Part shown: positions 6,006 to 55,953 of the stretch, piece after piece
How positions within the stretch are numbered: the first letter of the stretch is position 1
Layout: the number at the start of each line of letters is the position of its first letter
NCBI GenBank assembly: GCA_028876395.1
Contig: JAGWRX010000024.1
Span: forward strand, 1-64,000
Length of the DNA: 64,000 nucleotides
Origin: Acidobacteriota bacterium
GTDB taxonomy: Bacteria; Acidobacteriota; Terriglobia; Terriglobales; Acidobacteriaceae
Direction: 5' to 3'
Position numbers and translations under genes: made by a program
Notes under the pieces: generated by a model
Told to the model about the DNA's origin: nothing
Database searches by the model: none
What the model saw: only the letters and a program-made list of their open reading frames with translations

Positions 6006-6282
6006 GCGCGCTCTGTGCATGCCACGAAAGTGGCACGGCCTTCCGGGCAACTCTAAGCGAGAATCTGTGTCTATGATGGTTAGACAGGTGTGCTTTGTTC
6101 TTTTCTGGAGGCCGCTCCGGCGAAGCGCGGCGGATGGATGTCCGTCGTCTTCCTCATTCGTTCATTTCTGCTCCGGAAATGACTCCAGCGCGCTCGGTAC
6201 GACTCTCTGAACCCGGGTACGGAAGCGGTCTGTCCGTGCTAGCATGTTTGGACTTGGTACGCTCCACCTTATAAGGATGGCT

Positions 6283-9243
6283 ATGAAGACGATGCTTACA
6301 CTCCCAAAGAAAAAGTGGCTTAGGTTGGGCGGATGGATCGCCTGCTGCGTCATGGCGGCCACTGCTCTTGCCGCACAGGCGCCCGCTCCCCGTATTCGCT
6401 CCGAGGTCACCAACGAAATGTCCGCGCTGAAGGGCGGACCGCAGATGGAGGCGCAGTTTGACGCCGGCCCGATGTCCCCCGGCACCCGCCTCGAAAGCAT
6501 CAGCATCGTCTTCAATCGCTCGGCAGCGCAGCAGGCAGATCTGGACGCGCTGCTGGCCGCGCAGCAGAACCCGGCCTCGCCGCTCTATCACCAGTGGCTG
6601 ACACCGGACCAGTTTGCGGCCCGCTTCGGCATGGCCCAGTCCGACATCGACAAGGTGCGGCTCTGGCTCCAGCAGCAGGGCTTCTCAGTGGATTACACGG
6701 CCCGCAGCCGGAACATGATCCGCTTCTCCGGCACCGTAGGCCAGGTGGAGCAGGCGTTCCGGACCCAGATGCGCTTCTACAGCGTGAACGGCACAATGCA
6801 CTTTGGCCCGGCCTCGGCGCTCTCGGTGCCGTCGGCGATTGCGCCGGTGGTTGAGGGCGTGAGGAATCTGAGCGACTTCAAGCCGCGCTCCATGCACGCC
6901 GCGCGCGTGGCCCCGGTTGCCAGTCCGGCGTTTACGTCGTACATCTCAGGCAATGTGTTCTTTGCCCCCGGCGACATCAAGATGGCCTACGACCCGACCA
7001 GCGCCATCACCAAGAATTTCGACGGCACGGGGCAGACGATCGCCATCATGGGCCAGTCTGCCATTGTGGTCAGCGATATTGAGAACTTCCAGAAGGCGGC
7101 CGGGCTCACCGTCAAGGACCCGACGCAGGTGCTGGTGCCCGGCACCGGTACGTCGACCATCAGCAGCGGAGATGAGAGCGAGTCCGATCTTGACCTGGAG
7201 TGGTCCGGCGCAATGGCTCCCGGCGCGGACATCTTCTTTGTCTACACCGGCAACAGCACGACCAGCAGCGGCGTGTTTGACTCCATCACCTACGCGGTCG
7301 ATCAGAAGATCGGCGACATTATCAGCGTGAGCTACGGCGCCTGCGAGACGGTTCTTCAGGGCTACTCGCTGGAGTCGGTCTTCAAGCAGGCGGCCTCGCA
7401 GGGACAGACGATTCTTTCCGCCTCGGGCGACCAGGGCTCGACCTCCTGCAACGGCGTGAGCAGCCTGACGACAGCGCAGCAGCAGGCGCTGGCCGTGAAC
7501 TACCCGGCGAGCAGCCCCTACGTCACCGGCGTGGGCGGCACGGAAATCGATAATCCCAACACGGCGTATTACACCTCAAGCATTGCCTATGACGCGGCCT
7601 ACTACACTTCCGGCTCGGCGTACTGGGCGGCCAAGCAATCGACCGACGTGATTACCTCCGCGCTGCAGTGGCTGCCTGAGGTCACGTGGAACGACGACTC
7701 CAGCTCCTTTGGCCTGAGCGCCACGGGCGGCGGCGTCAGCGCACTTTTCTCCAAGCCCACGTGGCAGGGTGGCGTTCCCGGGATTCCTAACGACAGCAAG
7801 CGCGATGTGCCGGATATCTCGCTCTACTCCTCGCCGAACTTCGTTGCGTATCTTTACTGCACGAGCGACACGAGCGCATGGCAGCCGGCATCGGGCACAA
7901 ACCCGGCGCAGGCGGCGAGCTGCAACAGCGGCTTCCGCGACGGCACCTCGGGCGGCAACTACCTGACGCTGGCCGGCGGCACCAGCTTTGCGACGCCGGT
8001 GTTTGCGGGCATGCTGGCGCTGATCAACCAGCAGAAGAACTACCCGACCGGACAGGGACTCATCAACCCGACGCTCTATACGCTGGCCTCGAACAGCGCC
8101 ACGTATGCGGCGGCCTTCCACGACATCACGATCGGCAACAACAACTGCCTTGCCGGAACAACCTACTGCGGCACATCCACGGCGGGCTACTCCGCGGGCA
8201 CGGGCTACGACCTCGCGACGGGGCTCGGCTCAGTCCAACTTGCCGGTCTTTCCACTGCGTGGCCGGCCAACTCAGGCGGTTCAGCCGGGCTGATTGACAC
8301 CACGACGGCCGTGACCGCGTCGACCGCAACGCCGACCTCGGGCACCAACGTGACCTTCACCATCAAGGTTGCCTCGTCCACCGGATCGACGATCCCCTCG
8401 GGCACGGTGAACCTGGCCATCGATCAGACGCTGAGCGGCGGCGGCACAACCGCGACCGCGACGCTGGACGGGACCGGCACGGCGACGTATACAACCTCGT
8501 TCACAACCTCGGGCACGCACGTGGTGGTGGCCAACTATGCGGGCGACACGACTCATGCAGCCTCAACGGGCGCGGGATCGGTGACGATTGGCGGAAGCAC
8601 GGGTACAGCCAGCTTCAGGGTGTCGGCGAGCCCCTCTACCCTGACGGTCAAGCAAGGCACCTCGGGCCAGGAGACGCTGACCTTTACACCGTCGGGCGGC
8701 TATACGGGCACGATCTACATCAGCTTTACGGCCTCCAATTCCAGCGCGCTCGCCAACCTGTGCTACAACTTCACCAAGATCGCCCCGGACGGTTCGAGCG
8801 GCCAGGTGACGGTGAGCGGCACAACCGCCGCCAGCACGACCTTTACGCTGGACACGAATGCGGCGGATTGCAACGCCAGCGGCGCCGGTTACGGCGGTTA
8901 CTATGGCTACTACAGCGGCAAGAGCCACATGCTGCCGATGCGCGCGATGATGGGGACGCATACCTCGCGCAACAACGCGCCCAATCCTGCACCGGCGGGG
9001 CTGGCCTTTGCCGGGCTGCTGCTGGCCGGGTTCATGGCCCGTTACTCGAAGAAGCTGCGCGGCGTGGCCGGCGTGATTGCACTGGTGGCGCTCGGCCTGA
9101 CCATCTCCGCGTGCGGCGGGGGCGGCGGCGGTGTCAGCGTCCCGAACCCATCCAAGGGCACTTACACCATCACCGTGACGGGCAAGGATTCAACGAACAC
9201 GGCCCTCACGGCGTCCACCACGTTCACGTTCGTCATCGACTAA
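6283..9243 (+). CDS. Secreted S53 (sedolisin/kumamolisin) peptidase with Ig-like domain and C-terminal two-TM/AC-GGGG module
   Basis: Pro-kumamolisin-like N-term, ESDLDLEWSGAMAPGADI, GGTSFATPVFAGMLALINQ Ser motif, GYDLATGLGSVQ; signal peptide; AAGGA before ATG 6283 (6244 and 6277 are alternative starts). Confidence 0.9.
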   Translation: MKTMLTLPKKKWLRLGGWIACCVMAATALAAQAPAPRIRSEVTNEMSALKGGPQMEAQFDAGPMSPGTRLESISIVFNRSAAQQADLDALLAAQQNPASPLYHQWLTPDQFAARFGMAQSDIDKVRLWLQQQGFSVDYTARSRNMIRFSGTVGQVEQAFRTQMRFYSVNGTMHFGPASALSVPSAIAPVVEGVRNLSDFKPRSMHAARVAPVASPAFTSYISGNVFFAPGDIKMAYDPTSAITKNFDGTGQTIAIMGQSAIVVSDIENFQKAAGLTVKDPTQVLVPGTGTSTISSGDESESDLDLEWSGAMAPGADIFFVYTGNSTTSSGVFDSITYAVDQKIGDIISVSYGACETVLQGYSLESVFKQAASQGQTILSASGDQGSTSCNGVSSLTTAQQQALAVNYPASSPYVTGVGGTEIDNPNTAYYTSSIAYDAAYYTSGSAYWAAKQSTDVITSALQWLPEVTWNDDSSSFGLSATGGGVSALFSKPTWQGGVPGIPNDSKRDVPDISLYSSPNFVAYLYCTSDTSAWQPASGTNPAQAASCNSGFRDGTSGGNYLTLAGGTSFATPVFAGMLALINQQKNYPTGQGLINPTLYTLASNSATYAAAFHDITIGNNNCLAGTTYCGTSTAGYSAGTGYDLATGLGSVQLAGLSTAWPANSGGSAGLIDTTTAVTASTATPTSGTNVTFTIKVASSTGSTIPSGTVNLAIDQTLSGGGTTATATLDGTGTATYTTSFTTSGTHVVVANYAGDTTHAASTGAGSVTIGGSTGTASFRVSASPSTLTVKQGTSGQETLTFTPSGGYTGTIYISFTASNSSALANLCYNFTKIAPDGSSGQVTVSGTTAASTTFTLDTNAADCNASGAGYGGYYGYYSGKSHMLPMRAMMGTHTSRNNAPNPAPAGLAFAGLLLAGFMARYSKKLRGVAGVIALVALGLTISACGGGGGGVSVPNPSKGTYTITVTGKDSTNTALTASTTFTFVID

Positions 9244-42240: not shown

Positions 42241-45200
42241 ATGCGTCTCCTGCGTACGCTCATTCTGCCTCTTTTTGTCATCGCCCTGGTTTGCGGAACG
42301 CCATCCCTCGCTCAGGATTCAGCGCGCGCGGCGCGCATAGTCGACAAGGTGGATGAGAGCCAGCTTGTGCCACTGAAAGGCGACACGCACCCTGAGGCCA
42401 ATAGCCGCAACGATCTTGGCCCGGTCAGCCCGAATTTGCCAATGACTGACCTGGTGCTGGTTCTGAGGCGGAGCCCGGAGCAACAGGCTGCCTTTGACGA
42501 GTTTGTGTCCAGCCAGTATGACTCCAGCTCTCCCAACTTTCACCATTGGCTGGAGCCGGCGGAAGTGGGCAAACGGTTCGGCCCATCGCTGACCGACATC
42601 TCGACCATCTCCGGCTGGCTGACAGGGCATGGTTTCTCAATCGCCGAGGTGTCAAAGAATCGCATGTCCATCCGCTTCAACGGCACTGCGGCACAGGTGG
42701 AGAGAGCCTTTCACACTGAAATCCACAACCTGTCAGTGAAGGGCAAACAGCATATAGGGAACATCAGTGACCCGCAGATTCCCGCCGCGCTGGCGCCCGT
42801 AGTGGCAGGCGTAAAGGCTCTGCACAATTTCTTCCCGCGACCGCTTCACAGCCTGAGCAGCAAGGCTGCATTCAACAGCGAGACAGGCAGGTGGCAGCGG
42901 CTTGCGAACCCCCAGGCGACTGGCGCAACAGTGAGTCTCTCTCCGGATGTCACTACCGCCCGTCCTGAATTTGGCATTAGCATCGGCACGGGTTCCAGCG
43001 CCTACGTGATTGAGGATGTAGCGCCCTATGATTTTGCGACCATCTACAATGTGCTTCCGTTGTGGAGCGCGGGCATTGACGGGACCGGAGAAACCATCGC
43101 CATCGCCGGCACCAGCGACATTGACAATGCCGATGTTGCCACCTTCCGCAGCGTCTTCGGGCTGCCGGCCGGCACGACGCCAAAGACGATTGTCGCCAAT
43201 GGCATCGACCCTGGACTATGCACAAGCACGAGTTCGACTTCGCCTTGTACGATTGGGGATCTGATCGAGAACACGCTGGATGTGGAGTGGTCAGGAGCGG
43301 TGGCCAAAGGGGCAAGCATCGTGCTCGTGGTCTCCGGACAAACCTCGCCCATGACCGACACGGTCTACTCGTCGGCCGACTATGTCATCCAGAACAACAT
43401 TGCCAATATTCTGAACGTCAGCTATGGCGAGTGCGAGCTGTTCGCGGGAACCAGCGGAAACGCGGCGTACAACAATTTGTGGGAGACGGCAGCGACCGAG
43501 GGCATTGCGGTGTTTGTGGCTTCAGGAGATGCTGGAGCCGCCACCTGCGATCAGGGAATGGCCTCAAGCGTGCCCTATCGCGCGCAGTACGGTCTCACCG
43601 TCAGCGGCCTTGCATCCACGCCCTACAACACGGCCGTGGGCGGCACCGACTTGAACTGGGGCACGACCGCGTCGCCATACTGGGGCGCGTCCAATAACTC
43701 CGGCAACGGGTCAAACGCGCTGGGCTACATCCCCGAGGTCCCCTGGAACGACACCTGCACCAATCCGCTGGCTCTGAGTTACCTGCAGAAATGGGCCGCG
43801 GCTCTCCAGAAGGCGGGCTATGCGGCGACCAGTCCAACGGATGCCGAGTCAGCCTGCAATTTTGTCATTACCTGGTATACGACTATCTACAACAACACCA
43901 GCCCGGCGGTGAATCTGGCCGGGTTCGTCAACACAGTCGGCGGGGGCGGAGGTGCGAGCAGCTGCACCACCAGCGACGGGGCAACCAATTCGACTTGCGC
44001 CGGCGGCTACACAAAGCCGAGCTGGCAATCGGGACCTGTTGGCATTCCGGCCGATGGAAAACGAGACCTGCCCGACGTTTCTTTTTTTGCTTCCAATGGC
44101 TTTCTGGGCAGCGCATACCTGATGTGCGTCTCTGCCACCGGCACGTGCGTCACTTCCACTTCGCTCACCACCGAGCCAGTGGGCCAGGAGGTGGGCGGCA
44201 CGTCGGTGGCATCGCCGGCCATGGCAGGTGTCATGGCGCTGATCAACCAGAAGGCAGGCATGGCGCAGGGGAATCCCAACGCGGAACTCTACTCTCTGGG
44301 CGCGAAGCAAACCTATACGAATTGCAAGGCGGAGACCGGCAAAACAAACAATGGCTGCTATTTCAACGACATCGACACGGGCACCATCGCGATGCCATGT
44401 GCGCTCAATTCGCCGAACTGCACCGTGCTTTACTCCGGCGATTCCACAGGTGTTCTGTCAGGTTATGGCGCCACAACCGGTTTTGATCCGGCCACCGGGC
44501 TGGGTTCGCTGAATGTAGCCAACGTGGTGAACGCGTGGACATCGACCATCGGGACTGCAACCGCGACGATGACCTTGACGCCGTCGCAAAGCAGCTTGCC
44601 GCTGAACCAGAGCCTGAGCGTCGCGGTCGCGGTAAGCGGCTCGAATGGAACCCCTACCGGCACAGTCGCGCTCGTGGGCGGCGGGTACACGGCAGCAGCG
44701 GGGACGCTTTCCGGCGGGAGCTACACATTCACCATTCCGGCCGACAGCCTGAGCACAGGGAATGACACGCTGAAGGCAAGCTACAGCGGAGACGCAACCT
44801 ATGCCGCGACCACCGGAACGGCAAGCGTGACCATCAGCAAGCTGACTCCGACCGTAACCGTACAGCCCAACTCGACAACGGTAGGAGCCAATTCAAACGG
44901 CGTGTCGGTCACAATAACGGTCGCTGGCGCCGGCCCGGGGCCAACCGGCACGGTAACGGCGTCTGTCCCCGGCTACACATCGCCGTCATGCGCCCTGCTC
45001 ACCGGCAACTGCACGATTGTCATTCCGGTCGGCAACCTCACCAACGGAACGGACACCATTACGGCCAACTACAGCGGAGACTCGAATTACAACGCAGCCA
45101 GCGGGACAACAACGGTGACTGTAAACATTCTGACTCCGACCGTGCAGGTGACGCCGTCAGCAACCAGTCTCAGCTCGATTTCCAGCCTTCAGGTCGCGGT

Positions 45201-46542
45201 GAACGTGACCGGATCCGGGGGCACGCCGACCGGAAATGTGAACCTGTCCGGCCTCTACGCGGGAAGCTCCATGGGAGCAATACTTGTCGGCGGCAGCTAC
45301 ACCTTCACGGTCGGCCCGGGCGGTCTGAATCCGGGAACCGACACGCTGACGGTGACCTATTCCGGCGATAACACGTACCTTGCCGCGAGCGCGAAGACCG
45401 CCGTGACAGTGACCCAGGTGACGCCAACGGTGACGGTAACTCCGGCGGCCACCAGCATCGCCTCCAATGTGGCTCTCACGGTGACAGGGTCGGTTACCGG
45501 CGCAGGGCCCACGCCCACAGGGCAAGTGACGCTGATTGCCGGCGGCCAATCATTCGGCTCTTTTCTTTCCGGCGGCAGCTACTCGGTCACCATTCCAGCA
45601 GGCAGTCTGAGCAGCGGAGTTGACACGCTGACAGCCACGTACAGCGGGGACAATATCTACACCTCGGCAACCAACTCAGCCTCGGTCACGGTGACGGCCT
45701 TCACGAAACTGACGCCTGTTGTGACGGTGACACCGGCATCAGGCAGCGTGGATTCAGGCCAATCGCTGAATGTGACTGCCACGGTGACCGGCACCGATGG
45801 GACGCCGACAGGAACAGTTACGTTGTCAAGCGGCGGCTACACATCATTCACGCAGACGCTTTACAACGGCAGTTGGACCTTCACCATTCCGCCGAACAGT
45901 CTCAGCGCGGGAACGGACAGTCTGAGCGTCAACTACAGCGGCGATGCCACCTACCTAGCAGGCACGGGGGCAAGCTCCGCCACGGTGACGCAGTCGGCCT
46001 ATGCACTGGCGGCATCAACGCCGGCCGCGGTGGCTCCCGGCGGCTCGACAAACTCAACGATTACGGTGAGCACAAGCACCGGCTACACAGGCACGGTCAC
46101 GGTAACCTGCGCGCTGACGTCCTCTCCCACAGGAGCATCGTACTTGCCAACTTGCTCGACTCCGGGCTTCGTTGGCCTTCTTTCCGGGGCGACCAGCGGA
46201 ACGCTCACCGCCTCGGTAGCAACCACAGCGGCTACCGCAGCGCTGGCGCGGCCGGGCCTGGGCCGGTGGGTTGACGCAGGGAGTAGCGTGGTTCTCGCCT
46301 TCCTCGTCTTTCTGGGCATTCCGGCGCGGAGACGAAGCTGGCGGGCCATGCTGGGCGTGCTCGTGTTGCTGATGACGTTCGCCGGCCTGTCTGCCTGCGG
46401 CGGCGGAGGCGCCGCTAGCGTTGGCGGGAGTGGAGGCAACTCGGGAACCACCGCCGGCAACTACACCTTTACTGTGACGGGAAAGGGCGACCCTGCAGTG
46501 AATCCGGCGCCAACGGCCACGTTTACGGTGGCCGTGAACTAG
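42241..46542 (+). CDS. Large secreted S53 (sedolisin) peptidase with five Ig-like repeats and C-terminal two-TM/AC-GGGG module
   Basis: Pro-kumamolisin N-term, ENTLDVEWSGAVAKGASIV, GGTSVASPAMAGVMALINQKAG, GFDPATGLGSLNV; repeats of TPTVTVTP...GDTLTATYSGD. Confidence 0.92.
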   Translation: MRLLRTLILPLFVIALVCGTPSLAQDSARAARIVDKVDESQLVPLKGDTHPEANSRNDLGPVSPNLPMTDLVLVLRRSPEQQAAFDEFVSSQYDSSSPNFHHWLEPAEVGKRFGPSLTDISTISGWLTGHGFSIAEVSKNRMSIRFNGTAAQVERAFHTEIHNLSVKGKQHIGNISDPQIPAALAPVVAGVKALHNFFPRPLHSLSSKAAFNSETGRWQRLANPQATGATVSLSPDVTTARPEFGISIGTGSSAYVIEDVAPYDFATIYNVLPLWSAGIDGTGETIAIAGTSDIDNADVATFRSVFGLPAGTTPKTIVANGIDPGLCTSTSSTSPCTIGDLIENTLDVEWSGAVAKGASIVLVVSGQTSPMTDTVYSSADYVIQNNIANILNVSYGECELFAGTSGNAAYNNLWETAATEGIAVFVASGDAGAATCDQGMASSVPYRAQYGLTVSGLASTPYNTAVGGTDLNWGTTASPYWGASNNSGNGSNALGYIPEVPWNDTCTNPLALSYLQKWAAALQKAGYAATSPTDAESACNFVITWYTTIYNNTSPAVNLAGFVNTVGGGGGASSCTTSDGATNSTCAGGYTKPSWQSGPVGIPADGKRDLPDVSFFASNGFLGSAYLMCVSATGTCVTSTSLTTEPVGQEVGGTSVASPAMAGVMALINQKAGMAQGNPNAELYSLGAKQTYTNCKAETGKTNNGCYFNDIDTGTIAMPCALNSPNCTVLYSGDSTGVLSGYGATTGFDPATGLGSLNVANVVNAWTSTIGTATATMTLTPSQSSLPLNQSLSVAVAVSGSNGTPTGTVALVGGGYTAAAGTLSGGSYTFTIPADSLSTGNDTLKASYSGDATYAATTGTASVTISKLTPTVTVQPNSTTVGANSNGVSVTITVAGAGPGPTGTVTASVPGYTSPSCALLTGNCTIVIPVGNLTNGTDTITANYSGDSNYNAASGTTTVTVNILTPTVQVTPSATSLSSISSLQVAVNVTGSGGTPTGNVNLSGLYAGSSMGAILVGGSYTFTVGPGGLNPGTDTLTVTYSGDNTYLAASAKTAVTVTQVTPTVTVTPAATSIASNVALTVTGSVTGAGPTPTGQVTLIAGGQSFGSFLSGGSYSVTIPAGSLSSGVDTLTATYSGDNIYTSATNSASVTVTAFTKLTPVVTVTPASGSVDSGQSLNVTATVTGTDGTPTGTVTLSSGGYTSFTQTLYNGSWTFTIPPNSLSAGTDSLSVNYSGDATYLAGTGASSATVTQSAYALAASTPAAVAPGGSTNSTITVSTSTGYTGTVTVTCALTSSPTGASYLPTCSTPGFVGLLSGATSGTLTASVATTAATAALARPGLGRWVDAGSSVVLAFLVFLGIPARRRSWRAMLGVLVLLMTFAGLSACGGGGAASVGGSGGNSGTTAGNYTFTVTGKGDPAVNPAPTATFTVAVN
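44557..45997 (+). repeat. Five tandem Ig-like repeats (~96 aa / 288 bp each) within the S53 peptidase
   Basis: Periodic TPT(V)TV(T)P... / GTPTGTV / GGSYTFTIPAGSLS / GTDTLTATYSGDNTY segments read directly from the translation. Confidence 0.85.
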
Positions 46543-46645
46543 GCCGGGAAGCAGGGCCCTGCGTGCGCTCCGCGGGCGCACAGATGCAATGCGAATCTCT
46601 CGCAATTGCGGGTCCTGCGTCCAGCGCTTCGTGATAGAAGAAGAA

Positions 46646-49177
46646 ATGCGCAAACTTCCCTTTCTGGCTCTGCTGCTTGCTTCCATCGCCGCCCTTGCGC
46701 AAGTCCCCAAGGCAGCCCCTGACTCGGCCGCGCTGCCGACCATTCGCGCCAAGACAGCGCAGATGAAGCGCCTCGACGGATTTCTTCCGATCGATTGGGA
46801 CGCCCGAAGCGGGAGACTCTACATCGAGATTCCGCGCCTCGGTCCCGATGGCAGCAGTTCAGACATGCTCTACGTCAACTCTCTGCCCTACGGCACGGGC
46901 TCGAACGACCTGGGCCTCGACCGCGGCCAGGTTTCAGAAGGCCGCATCGTGCGCTTCATGCGCAGCGGACCCAAGGTGCTGCTCGTCGAGCGCAACATGG
47001 CTTTTCGCGCTTCGAGCACCGACCCCGACGAGCAGCTCGCTGTCACGCAGTCTTTCCCCGAGTCTGTTCTGTGGGGTTTTACCGTGGCAGCCGAGTCTCC
47101 GCAAGGCGCCGTGCTCCTCGACGCCACTGACTTCTTTCTGCACGACGCGCACGGCGTCTCCGACACGCTGACCCGGCTGAAGCAGGGCGCCTACAAGGTC
47201 GACGCCACCCGCTCCGCCATTGCCCTCGACGATACCAAAGTCTTCCCGAAGAACACGGAGGTGGAAGCCGAGCTTACGTTCACGACCGACGGCCCGGCGG
47301 AGGGGGACTTCGTCAACGACGTCACGCCCGATCCGCACGCCATGACCGTTCGTGAGCGCACTTCCTTCATTGAGCTGCCGCCGCCCGGCTTCAAGCCGCG
47401 ACGCTTCAACCCCCGCGCCGGCTATTTTCCCGGCGGCTATCGCGACTACACGGCGCCCCTCGGCGAACCTCTCGATCAGCTCTTCATCCTGCGCCATCGC
47501 CTTCAAAAAAAGTATCCCAACTGTGCCTCCGCCTGCGAAGCCGTCACGCCCATTCAGTACTACGTGGATCGCGGTGCGCCGGAGCCCGTCCGCACCGCCC
47601 TGCTGGAAGGGGCGCGCTGGTGGGATCAGGCCTTCCAGGCTGCCGGGTGGGCCAAAGGAACCTTTCGCGTGGACCTGCTGCCCGCCGGCGCGGACCCCAT
47701 GGACGTGCGCTACAACATCATCCAGTGGGTCCACCGCTACACGCGCGGCTGGAGCTACGGCGAGGCGGTCGCCGATCCGCGCACGGGCGAGATCATCAAA
47801 GGCAATGTCACGCTCGGCTCCCTGCGCGCGCGCCAGGACTTCATGATCGCGGAGGCGCTCTTGTCTCCCTACGGCAACGACGCCTCTGCGCCGGACAAGA
47901 AGAAGGAAGCAGCGGACTCGGACGGCACCCCGATGCTCGAGATGGTGCTGGCGCGCATTCGCCAGCTGGCCGCGCATGAGACCGGCCACACGCTGGGCCT
48001 GGCGCACAACTTTGCCGCTTCGACCATCTCGCAGGGCGACAGCGTGATGGATTATCCCCACCCCTACGTCACGCTCGACACCAATGGCCGCGTCGATCTC
48101 TCGCACGCTTATACCGTGAACATCGGCGCCTGGGACAAGGTGGCCATCGATTACGGCTACCGCCAGTTCGCTCCCCACATGTCTGCTGAATCCGAAAAGG
48201 CGGCGCTGAACAAGATCCTCACCGATGCGGATCGCGCCGGCCAGGTCTTCATTACGGATGAAGACGCCCGCCCAATGGGCTCCGCGCACCCGCGGGCGCA
48301 TCTGTGGGATAACGGCCCCGATCCCGCAGCTGAACTCGATCGGGTTCTGGCCGTGCGCGCAGCCGCGCTGAAGAACTTCGGCGAGGACGCAATCAAGCCC
48401 GGCACTCCGATGGCCCAGCTCGAACAGACCCTGGTGCCGCTCTATCTCTATCACCGCTACCAGACCGAAGCCGCCATCAAGGAGATCGGCGGCCTGGATT
48501 ACCGCTACAACCTGCGCGGCGACGGGCTTCCGAGCCCTTCCGTCGTCGATCCAGCGGAGCAGCGCAAGGCGCTCGCTGCCGTCCTCAAGACGCTGACTCC
48601 GGAGACGCTTACGCTGCCCGAGCCGCTGCTGCGCCTGCTGCCGCCTGTTCCACCCGGCTACCCGCGCACCCGGGAGTCCTTCCCATCGCACACGGGTCTC
48701 ACCTTTGATCCGGTTGCCGCCGCTGAATCCGCGGCCGACCTCACGCTTTCCGCGCTCCTCGACCCGGCCCGCGCCAGCCGCCTCATCGAGTACCACATGC
48801 GCGTGCCGGCCTCGCTTGCGCTCCGCAGCGTTCTTGAGGCGGTCTCCTCCACCGTTGCCGAGCGGCCGGAATCCGGTCACAGCATGTCCTCTGAAGTTGA
48901 GCGCGCCGTTGAATTCCGCGCCCTCGAAGCCATGCTCTCCCTCGCCGTGAATCCGGCCGCGTCCAGCCAGGCTCGCGCCATCACCCGCGCGCACATCACC
49001 GGCCTTCTCAAGCACCTGACCTCGACGCCGGCGCCGCCGGACTCCGCTGAGGCAATCCATCGCGCCGCGCTCATTGACCGCATCAAGAGGTTCGAGGATG
49101 ACCCGGCCCGGTTCGTACCCGCTCCACCCGTCAAAGCGCCTGCGGGTATGCCGATAGGCGATGATGAGGACTTTTAA
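46646..49177 (+). CDS. Zinc-dependent metzincin-like peptidase (DUF5117/DUF5118-type), secreted
   Basis: RQLAAHETGHTLGLAHNFAAS (HExxHxxGxxH), Met-turn SVMDYPHPY; signal peptide MRKLPFLALLLASIAALAQ. Confidence 0.88.
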   Translation: MRKLPFLALLLASIAALAQVPKAAPDSAALPTIRAKTAQMKRLDGFLPIDWDARSGRLYIEIPRLGPDGSSSDMLYVNSLPYGTGSNDLGLDRGQVSEGRIVRFMRSGPKVLLVERNMAFRASSTDPDEQLAVTQSFPESVLWGFTVAAESPQGAVLLDATDFFLHDAHGVSDTLTRLKQGAYKVDATRSAIALDDTKVFPKNTEVEAELTFTTDGPAEGDFVNDVTPDPHAMTVRERTSFIELPPPGFKPRRFNPRAGYFPGGYRDYTAPLGEPLDQLFILRHRLQKKYPNCASACEAVTPIQYYVDRGAPEPVRTALLEGARWWDQAFQAAGWAKGTFRVDLLPAGADPMDVRYNIIQWVHRYTRGWSYGEAVADPRTGEIIKGNVTLGSLRARQDFMIAEALLSPYGNDASAPDKKKEAADSDGTPMLEMVLARIRQLAAHETGHTLGLAHNFAASTISQGDSVMDYPHPYVTLDTNGRVDLSHAYTVNIGAWDKVAIDYGYRQFAPHMSAESEKAALNKILTDADRAGQVFITDEDARPMGSAHPRAHLWDNGPDPAAELDRVLAVRAAALKNFGEDAIKPGTPMAQLEQTLVPLYLYHRYQTEAAIKEIGGLDYRYNLRGDGLPSPSVVDPAEQRKALAAVLKTLTPETLTLPEPLLRLLPPVPPGYPRTRESFPSHTGLTFDPVAAAESAADLTLSALLDPARASRLIEYHMRVPASLALRSVLEAVSSTVAERPESGHSMSSEVERAVEFRALEAMLSLAVNPAASSQARAITRAHITGLLKHLTSTPAPPDSAEAIHRAALIDRIKRFEDDPARFVPAPPVKAPAGMPIGDDEDF

Positions 49178-53295: not shown

Positions 53296-55953
53296 TCATT
53301 TGGGCTGTTCCGGCCGCCAGTTCAGAATTACGCTCAGGGACGAGGCGTCGGCGGCATTCTCGCTGATAATCAGGAACCGGTTGCCGTCGGGGGAAATATC
53401 CCAGCTCATCGGCCCGGTGCGAATTCCGGTATCCACCATCTGCGTGTTGAACAGAGCGAGCGGTGTGCCCGATTGAAAGACAGGGCTGGTGGTCACCTTG
53501 ACCTCCGTCATTTTCCAGTCCTCGGAGATATAGAACAGCGCTTTGCCGTCCCGCCGCCAGCGCGGCATGACGCCCCCGCCCCTGGACACCATCCATTTAC
53601 CACTGTTCGCGGCGGGCGGGAACGGAATCACATAGATTTCGCTCAGGCCAGACTCGTTCGAGGTGTACGCGACCCAGTGCCCGTCGGGAGAAAATTGTCC
53701 CTGGTCTTCGTTCCCCTTCGTATGTGCCAGAACCAGCGGATGTGAGTCAGATTCCACGGGTTTGACCGGCAGAGCGAACAAATCTGCCCCGGTGCCGGGA
53801 TCGATTTGCGCATAGAGGATGTACTTTCCATCCGGCGACCAGCTCTTGGGAACAGCCAGGGTATGATTTGTCCGCAACAGCATCTCTTCAGCCCCAGCTC
53901 CGTCGGCGCGCTTCCGGCAAATGCCGGCTCCGTTGTTGTACGCCAGGTACCGGCCGTCGGGCGACCAGATGGGATTCGAGCCCCCAAGCGGCCCAAAGGC
54001 GATTCGCGTGGCCACTCCCTGTCCGAATTCGAGCACCGTTGTTTTGCCGTCAGGATCCCCCACGAGCTGCTTTCCATCCGGTGAAATCATGACGGAGCCG
54101 CCCGCATGTCCCAGGGTGCCCAAATCTCCGCCTTGACGGTCCCTCCAAACGTACTGCCTGTTGGTTGGCAGGCCAGAGACGTACGCCAGCACTCCGTGTT
54201 TGGATGCGGTGGCCAACCAGCGCCCGTTGATGCCCATCGCAATGCCTTGCGCCACAGGGAATGGGTCGCCTGCCGCTTGAAGCCGTTTCATATTGAAGGG
54301 CAACGCCATCAGAGCGCCGGCGCGTGTGAACAAGATTGCTCCGACGCTGCTGCCGGAGGGTGGATCAACAATTTCGGCATTGGAAACATCGGGCAGGATG
54401 CGCGTTGTCTGCGGGCTGTCCATGGAACTCAACCAGATTCCGTCTTGCGCCGGGTCCCCCCAAATGTTGCGTGTGGCCACAAAGTGGCGCCCGTCGGGCA
54501 GGAAAACGGGGAAGGTCTCGGTGACGGCGCGATGCCCGGAAAGATCCGTGACCGCGCCACCCGCGTCAGACACTCTCTGCACCCTCCACAGGCCGCCAAG
54601 TAAAATGTCGCCGTTGCGATTCCACGTTCCGCCCAGCACTCCGAGCGCGTCGCAAAGCGTTTGCACCGGCCCGCCTTCACGATCAATCTTCTTCAACTGG
54701 GCATCTGCAAAGAATGCGATGGACCGGTTGTCAGGCGACCAGAATGGATCTACGGCGTTATCCGTGCCGGCCAGCGGCGTTGCTTCGAGCGCATCGAGCG
54801 GCCGAACCCAGATCTGCTGCTTTCCATCCTTGACCAGGACCATGGCAATGGCGCGCCCGTCCGGAGAAACCGCGAGGGCGTGGACGCGCGTCTTCTCGGG
54901 CAGCAAGACGTTCACCCGCGTGGTTGGCTGCGAAGCGGGCTGTTGGCGAAAATAGACGACGGTCAACACCACCAGAAGAAGCGTGACGAGTCCCAGCGCG
55001 CCGGCGAGCATGGCGCTGCGGGAACGTGGCGAAGCGGCAGCGGGAGCATGTGCAATCGACTCCAACTCCCATTTCAGGTCGCGCGCGCATTGCCAGCGTT
55101 CATCCGGGTCGGTCTCCAGGCACCGCTTCACGACGCGGTGGAGGGCCGGTGGCAATTCTTCAGGAGACTTCGAACGCTTGCCGGTCGCCATCTCTGTCAG
55201 AATCAGGCCCAGGGCGTAGATATCCGAGCGTACATCCGCCTCTTTTCCCTCCAATCGCTCCGGAGCCATGTATGCAGGAGTGCCCATCACCCCTCCTGCG
55301 ACGGTAAGGGACGGATCTACCGCCGATTTGGCCAGTCCGAAGTCCAGCACCTTGATCCCGGATTTGGTGAGCATAATGTTGCCGGGTTTCAGATCGCGGT
55401 GAACGATACCCTTGGCGTGGGCCACCGCCAGAGCCTCCGCGATCTGTGCTCCATATCGGATGATCTGGTCGATCGGCAATTTGCCGCGCTTCAGGCGCGC
55501 ACTCAGCGTTTCGCCTTCAATCAGCTCCATTACAAGGTAGTTGGGACCCACGTCATAGAGCGTGCAAACGTTCGGATGATTGATCGCTGCGATGGAACGC
55601 GACTCCTGCTCGAAGCGGCCGCTGAATTCTTCTTTGCAGATTTTGATCGCAACCGGGCGGTTCAGGCGCGTGTCTGTGGCGCGGAAGACCTTGCCCATGC
55701 CGCCTTGGCCCAGCGTCGCCTCGATCCTGTACGGGCCCAGCTGGGATCCGGGCGTAATCGGCGTGTCCTCGAGTCCCGTGAGCAGGTCCGTGGCGCGCTG
55801 ATCGAGCAGCTTGCGGCCGCTCTCCGAGTTGTGCAACAGCAGCTTTTCGACCTCTCTGCGCATCTCGGGGTCGACGCCGTCCAGAACCGCAACGCCGTGC
55901 TCACACGCGGCGTGGTAGAGCTCCTCGATCTGCCGCCAGCGCTGCGAAGACAA
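53296..55953 (-). CDS. Serine/threonine protein kinase with C-terminal TolB/PD40-like beta-propeller
   Basis: LGQGGMGKVFRATDTRLNRPVAIKI, GIVHRDLKPGNIMLTKSGIKVLDFGLAKS, APERLEGKEADVRSDIYALG; then repeated SPDG.. units. Confidence 0.93.
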   Translation of the reverse strand: MSSQRWRQIEELYHAACEHGVAVLDGVDPEMRREVEKLLLHNSESGRKLLDQRATDLLTGLEDTPITPGSQLGPYRIEATLGQGGMGKVFRATDTRLNRPVAIKICKEEFSGRFEQESRSIAAINHPNVCTLYDVGPNYLVMELIEGETLSARLKRGKLPIDQIIRYGAQIAEALAVAHAKGIVHRDLKPGNIMLTKSGIKVLDFGLAKSAVDPSLTVAGGVMGTPAYMAPERLEGKEADVRSDIYALGLILTEMATGKRSKSPEELPPALHRVVKRCLETDPDERWQCARDLKWELESIAHAPAAASPRSRSAMLAGALGLVTLLLVVLTVVYFRQQPASQPTTRVNVLLPEKTRVHALAVSPDGRAIAMVLVKDGKQQIWVRPLDALEATPLAGTDNAVDPFWSPDNRSIAFFADAQLKKIDREGGPVQTLCDALGVLGGTWNRNGDILLGGLWRVQRVSDAGGAVTDLSGHRAVTETFPVFLPDGRHFVATRNIWGDPAQDGIWLSSMDSPQTTRILPDVSNAEIVDPPSGSSVGAILFTRAGALMALPFNMKRLQAAGDPFPVAQGIAMGINGRWLATASKHGVLAYVSGLPTNRQYVWRDRQGGDLGTLGHAGGSVMISPDGKQLVGDPDGKTTVLEFGQGVATRIAFGPLGGSNPIWSPDGRYLAYNNGAGICRKRADGAGAEEMLLRTNHTLAVPKSWSPDGKYILYAQIDPGTGADLFALPVKPVESDSHPLVLAHTKGNEDQGQFSPDGHWVAYTSNESGLSEIYVIPFPPAANSGKWMVSRGGGVMPRWRRDGKALFYISEDWKMTEVKVTTSPVFQSGTPLALFNTQMVDTGIRTGPMSWDISPDGNRFLIISENAADASSLSVILNWRPEQPK

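Follow-up and report, generated by a model that had tools for sequence, protein, structure and literature searches.

Beyond its own catalogued family, the described systems closest to the C-terminal module reported here are other C-terminal sorting tags and the classical N-terminal lipoprotein signal. GlyGly-CTERM tags are found on S8/S53 peptidases, and C-terminal tags swap among homologues (PMC3237569). Like GlyGly-CTERM and PEP-CTERM, the module is a C-terminal tag exchanged among homologous extracellular enzymes. However, these tags consist of one transmembrane segment (TM) and a basic C-terminal end, whereas the module is a predicted hairpin with both ends outside, for which their cognate proteases are absent or dispensable. 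Compared with PEP-CTERM, moreover, the module lacks the Pro-Glu-Pro motif, has two TMs and an outer tail, and matches the Pfam PEP-CTERM model at E 7.8 only. MYXO-CTERM, the target of myxosortase, shares with it a C-terminal sorting region, an invariant Cys as proposed lipidation site and a basic cytoplasmic cluster (PMC11980579). In that system, the Cys precedes a single TM, the topology is inverted and a defined lipobox is absent (PMC11980579), whereas in the module the Cys follows the second of two TMs, in a lipobox-like context. Finally, the classical signal read by Lgt, LspA and Lnt has the same basic n-side, hydrophobic stretch and small residue-Cys pair at the outer face, followed by a short Gly/Ser-rich stretch, and some N-terminal lipoproteins (L008, L125) match the family model over TM2 and the Cys. 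The module differs from it in being internal, near the C-terminus, after TM1 and a whole exported enzyme; in addition, many modules have no L, V or I at position -3.

The window analysed is a stretch of 64,000 nucleotides from an Acidobacteriota bacterium (contig JAGWRX010000024.1). The earlier note described an S53 peptidase ending in two hydrophobic helices around a basic loop, then a Cys and a Gly run, and translation of the open reading frame at 6244-9243 agrees exactly. The encoded protein consists of a pro-domain (Pfam Pro-kuma_activ, E 1.7e-29), a catalytic domain (Peptidase_S8, the S8/S53 catalytic family, E 2.7e-10), a Big_3_5 Ig domain (E 3.1e-13) and a last Ig-like domain carrying the hairpin. 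Its features, and those of a second gene of the same kind, are as follows (AF2, AlphaFold2 model):

6244-9243, forward strand: host S53 (sedolisin/kumamolisin-like) peptidase, secreted, ORF of 999 aa
8611-8853, forward strand: last Ig-like domain, strands A-E (AF2 strands 11-91 of a 220-aa model, pLDDT mostly 83-97)
8854-8985, forward strand: linker from the E strand to TM1, low confidence (pLDDT <50 over most of it)
8986-9039, forward strand: TM1 (LAFAGLLLAGFMA...), residues ~915-932 (AF2 helix 138-155)
9040-9063, forward strand: basic loop RYSKKLRG, residues 933-940, predicted cytoplasmic from sequence
9064-9111, forward strand: TM2, h-region of the type II signal-like segment, residues 941-956 (AF2 helix 160-175), ending ISA directly before Cys957
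9112-9114, forward strand: Cys957 (TGC codon), predicted lipidation site and first residue after the predicted LspA cut
9115-9156, forward strand: Gly-rich linker starting GGGGGG, from sequence
9157-9240, forward strand: strands F and G of the last Ig-like domain (AF2 strands 193-203 and 210-219, pLDDT 95-97)
42241-46542, forward strand: second S53 peptidase with the same C-terminal module, 1433 aa
46000-46221, forward strand: second copy, last Ig-like domain, strands A-E (AF2)
46270-46398, forward strand: second copy, TM1, RRRSWR loop, TM2 and Cys (AF2 helices 109-123 and 132-148), with the Cys codon at 46396-46398
46456-46539, forward strand: second copy, strands F-G (AF2 strands 171-182 and 190-197, pLDDT about 93-97)

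Directly 3' of the second S53 gene, at 46589-49177 on the forward strand, lies a gene for an 862-aa protein with a HETGHTLGLAHN zinc-metalloprotease motif; an NCBIfam search of this protein at E 0.001 gave zero matches.

The earlier note took the tail for a possibly undescribed signal, but NCBIfam already covers both window tails with NF058595 (invert_tail, 'lipo-invert putative C-terminal anchoring domain'). Against a curated cut-off of 37 bits, this model scored 44.0 bits on the whole 999-aa protein, 50.9 on its tail and 63.5 on the tail of the second copy; in the whole-genome search, the two proteins reached 49.5 and 60.9 bits. Both tails are thus members of this catalogued family, from which they show no difference. 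The name 'lipo-invert' was found in no paper of the full-text library searched, and among the papers listed in a search for internal or C-terminal lipoboxes, no precedent could be identified by title and abstract. The present analysis adds the splitting of an Ig domain by insertion in its E-F loop and a test in which the Cys was masked; NF058595 itself is known here by its title.

The distribution of the module was assayed at several taxonomic levels. In the assembly to which the window belongs (3.85 Mb, 87% complete), 7-9 matches were counted. Among 297 genomes of the phylum, all 31 of the same family carry several modules each, and outside that family the whole module was found in only two genomes of one family (f42); the remaining matches covered tail model positions only or were N-terminal lipoproteins. 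The two f42 genomes, which belong to a distant family, have one full module each (L072 in G216, L082 in G272), either inherited or transferred. A wider draw within the class added two families (f83, f84), together with rare occurrences in f82 and f86; the module was not found in f2, f85 and f87 among the listed genomes of that draw, in which 46 negative genomes are unlisted. None of 14 control genomes from other phyla gave a match above the NF058595 cut-off. A comparison with named plasmid records gave no match. Copy number and arrangement vary: one 5.4-Mb genome (G321) gave 35 matches to the masked model described below, far above any other, and one locus (L071, G241:C1:3933800-3945500) holds three module-bearing genes on one strand within 12 kb.

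In sequence comparison, the Cys is the sole invariant column among 57 diverse sequences with a mean column identity of about 23%. To guard against a bias towards Cys that such tails might build into the model, the Cys and its preceding residue were hidden and the genomes were searched anew; the Gly run was left unmasked, so that a module with neither Cys nor Gly run could still escape the search. With this model, 58 of 60 genomes of the window's family, representing 59 genera, were positive, and the Cys followed G, A or S in 94/94 newly fetched modules. In the combined first set, in which the Cys after G/A/S was favoured where two were possible, position -1 was G (95), A (43) or S (30) in 168 of 168 modules, compared with 28.5% G/A/S in the TM2 core. 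When the Cys was picked regardless of its neighbour, the residue before it was again G, A or S in 78/78 modules. Twenty of 20 further modules from other families of the class agreed, bringing the total to 188/188. Position +1 was G in 130 and S in 24 of the 168 modules (154 together). The strict lipobox [LVI][ASTVI][GAS]C was present in 59 of the 168 and a relaxed form in 139; the 999-aa protein reads T-I-S-A-C, with I at -3.

Between 34 and 55 residues follow the Cys (median 43, 168 modules), which places the module at the C-terminus. Scattered matches with no conserved Cys, which the earlier note had named as grounds for abandoning its proposal, did not occur, and both the recurrence of the module and its lipobox-like Cys were borne out. 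With its repeated copies in one genome, its presence in nearly all sampled genomes of the family and a Cys as its only invariant column, the tail module is not a product of chance.

The earlier note described the residues after the Gly run as a beta-rich tail. To compare them with Ig domains, a model of 116 positions was built from 26 uninterrupted Ig-like domains of the fetched genes, an earlier model from two intact domains having been too weak; with 26 domains the question was settled. Some of these domains belong to hosts of the modules under study; by design, the comparison thus stays inside a single broad Ig family. For the 106 modules with enough upstream sequence, every upstream part scored above 5 bits (median 41, model positions about 7-87), as did every tail after the Cys (median 27, positions about 83-113). 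No hairpin matched (0/106), and only 1 and 5 of 106 shuffled controls exceeded 5 bits. Twenty of 20 further modules from other families of the class showed the same split, that is 126/126 in all. Locus L059 provides an internal control: of its three tandem Ig copies, two are uninterrupted, while the third is broken between 'TLTITTTAP' and 'GQYTVTVTG'.

Structure prediction agreed with this division. For both window proteins, AlphaFold2 formed one sandwich from the two parts (pLDDT about 95), with the two helices between them. Foldseek aligned a 110-aa CARDB Ig-like domain (3idu_B) across the interruption over 196 columns with a target TM-score of 0.63; its best E-values, 0.007 and 0.011, were weak, as is usual for the short Ig fold. 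The 'beta tail' is therefore no element of its own but strands F and G of the last Ig-like domain, whose E-F loop the hairpin interrupts. For the two Ig halves to come together on the same side of the membrane, the helices between them must be even in number, which accounts for two TMs in the module where other C-terminal tags have one. A nearly conserved Pro before TM1 was also considered as a cleavage motif and dropped, its position falling in the badly aligned linker.

Across the family, the loop between the helices of the hairpin contains a median of 4 R/K and 0.1 D/E, the last basic residue precedes the Cys by 17-21 residues in most modules, and TM2 is hydrophobic up to the lipobox (KD mean 2.27). 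A scan with the whole 999-aa protein gave two orthologues, both from Acidobacteria MAGs, 79% and 72% identical overall. The loop RYSKKLRG is 100% identical in both, and TM1 is 96% and 83% identical, equal to or above the catalytic domain; as far as two orthologues can tell, TM1 is therefore under more constraint than a spacer would be. The positive-inside rule predicts a cytoplasmic loop and two external ends, with the Cys at the outward end of TM2; in this arrangement, TM2 would be oriented and laid out like a type II (lipoprotein) signal. Most hosts are predicted to begin with a type I signal peptide: a simple test was passed by 55 of 71, and the others have uncertain starts. At residue 957 of 999, the Cys lies far from the N-terminal place of a lipoprotein signal, and N-terminal lipoprotein candidates in the same genomes numbered only 2 and 8.

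The module is carried by extracellular enzymes and choice-of-anchor proteins. Among 54 full-length hosts, 15 have an S53 pro-domain, 11 have choice-of-anchor D domains, 5 are ExeM/NucH nucleases, 4 belong to TIGR03118 (a family named for PEP-CTERM), and there is one 1,6-beta-glucanase and one multicopper oxidase. The module thus occupies the place of sorting tags in related proteins.

Altogether, the idea of a C-terminal anchor is well supported by this comparative evidence. We consider it likely that the signal consists of the E-F loop hairpin with a Cys lipidated by Lgt, which LspA would probably cut; here we infer the topology, lipidation, cleavage and the final location (inner membrane, outer membrane or surface). 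The host would be exported through its N-terminal signal peptide until TM1 halts transfer, leaving the basic loop in the cytoplasm. TM2 would then lead back outward and expose the Cys on the inner membrane's outer side, as an ordinary lipoprotein signal does. Lgt would add diacylglycerol to this internal Cys, LspA would probably cleave the bond directly preceding it, and the N-terminus so formed could be acylated by Lnt. On the outer side, strands A-E and F-G would fold together, and because F-G pairs with A-E in the Ig domain, the cut protein would still be joined to the lipidated F-G piece. A two-chain lipoprotein of this kind, in which LspA cuts inside the folded Ig domain and the lipidated F-G hairpin non-covalently holds a large secreted enzyme, is a serious possibility that we advance tentatively. 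Against our preferred reading as a whole stand the 59 of 168 modules with a strict lipobox, a minority, and TM1, which would keep the enzyme tied to the inner membrane unless it were removed later; no enzyme for such a removal was found.

The same sequence evidence would fit a protein that is lipidated and left uncut, Lgt acting on the Cys while TM1 and the folded Ig domain block LspA, so that two helices and a lipid would keep the protein in the inner membrane. The prospective cut would fall within the Ig domain, and an uncut chain would fold more simply. However, position -1 is limited in all modules to G/A/S, the residue that LspA needs, and the hairpin alone would stay in the membrane without a lipid. 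We regard this arrangement as rather unlikely.

The cleavage and lipidation proposed in our preferred reading call on enzymes that the genomes encode: in good assemblies, LspA was present in 47/47, Lgt in 32/32, Lnt in 15/15 and LolA in 15/15 (the incomplete assembly to which the window belongs yielded no LolA). The presence of an Lsp gene, for which the earlier note proposed a co-occurrence test, fits a lipoprotein route, as does that of the others, but discriminates nothing, since these are housekeeping genes. One family genome has tandem LspA genes (G257:C21:54452-54886 and 55055-55486), nearly all the others having one.

Alternatively, a dedicated membrane protease or transferase could act at the Cys in place of LspA, as myxosortase (CPBP family) does on MYXO-CTERM. 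We judge this improbable. MYXO-CTERM, too, relies on an invariant Cys and is served by a protease of its own (PMC11980579), and the concentration of the module in a few families of one class is what a dedicated system predicts. Many family genomes also have two or three Lgt paralogues (e.g. G000:C30:6588-7295 and C212:3557-4306), of which one is divergent (about 80-130 bits) and could be a second diacylglyceryl transferase. However, a Cys after TM2, in the orientation of an ordinary lipoprotein, makes a special enzyme unnecessary, and genomes with a single Lgt also carry the module; several, such as G023 and G210, have one Lgt and one LspA only.

Two helices alone would suffice as an anchor, and the Cys might then be unlipidated and serve elsewhere, in a disulfide, in metal binding or in helix capping. 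Such a plain transmembrane hairpin leaves the invariant [GAS]-Cys-[mostly Gly/Ser] pattern unexplained, and 74/78 tails have no second Cys for pairing, which makes it quite improbable. Finally, a role of TM1 and the loop as a PEP-CTERM- or GlyGly-CTERM-like target of exosortase or rhombosortase, partners considered in the earlier note and suggested by appearance and by weak matches to PEP-CTERM (E 7.8, as above) and VPDSG-CTERM (E 0.26-0.4), is largely refuted and scarcely credible: the basic cluster lies away from the C-terminus, exosortase is missing from the window's genome and 25 others of the 60 family genomes searched, 25 of these 26 (many 98-100% complete) still carry the module, and rhombosortase (TIGR03902) exceeded its 84-bit cut-off in 0/60.

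The mechanism of this catalogued family is directly testable, one protein being distinguished from two chains. If it operates as proposed, the module could serve as a tool for C-terminal protein display. Sedolisins lose their N-terminal pro-domain on activation; a C-terminal anchor would therefore outlast activation where an N-terminal lipid would not. A two-chain lipoprotein, if confirmed, would represent anchoring by split-domain complementation in dozens of secreted proteins of one bacterial class. Abundant soil bacteria of this class place many different extracellular proteins, among them sedolisins, nucleases, glucanases, copper oxidases and beta-propellers, on one kind of probable C-terminal anchor. 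Should this anchor prove to be an internal lipoprotein signal, the Lgt/LspA pathway would gain a second, C-terminal mode of use.
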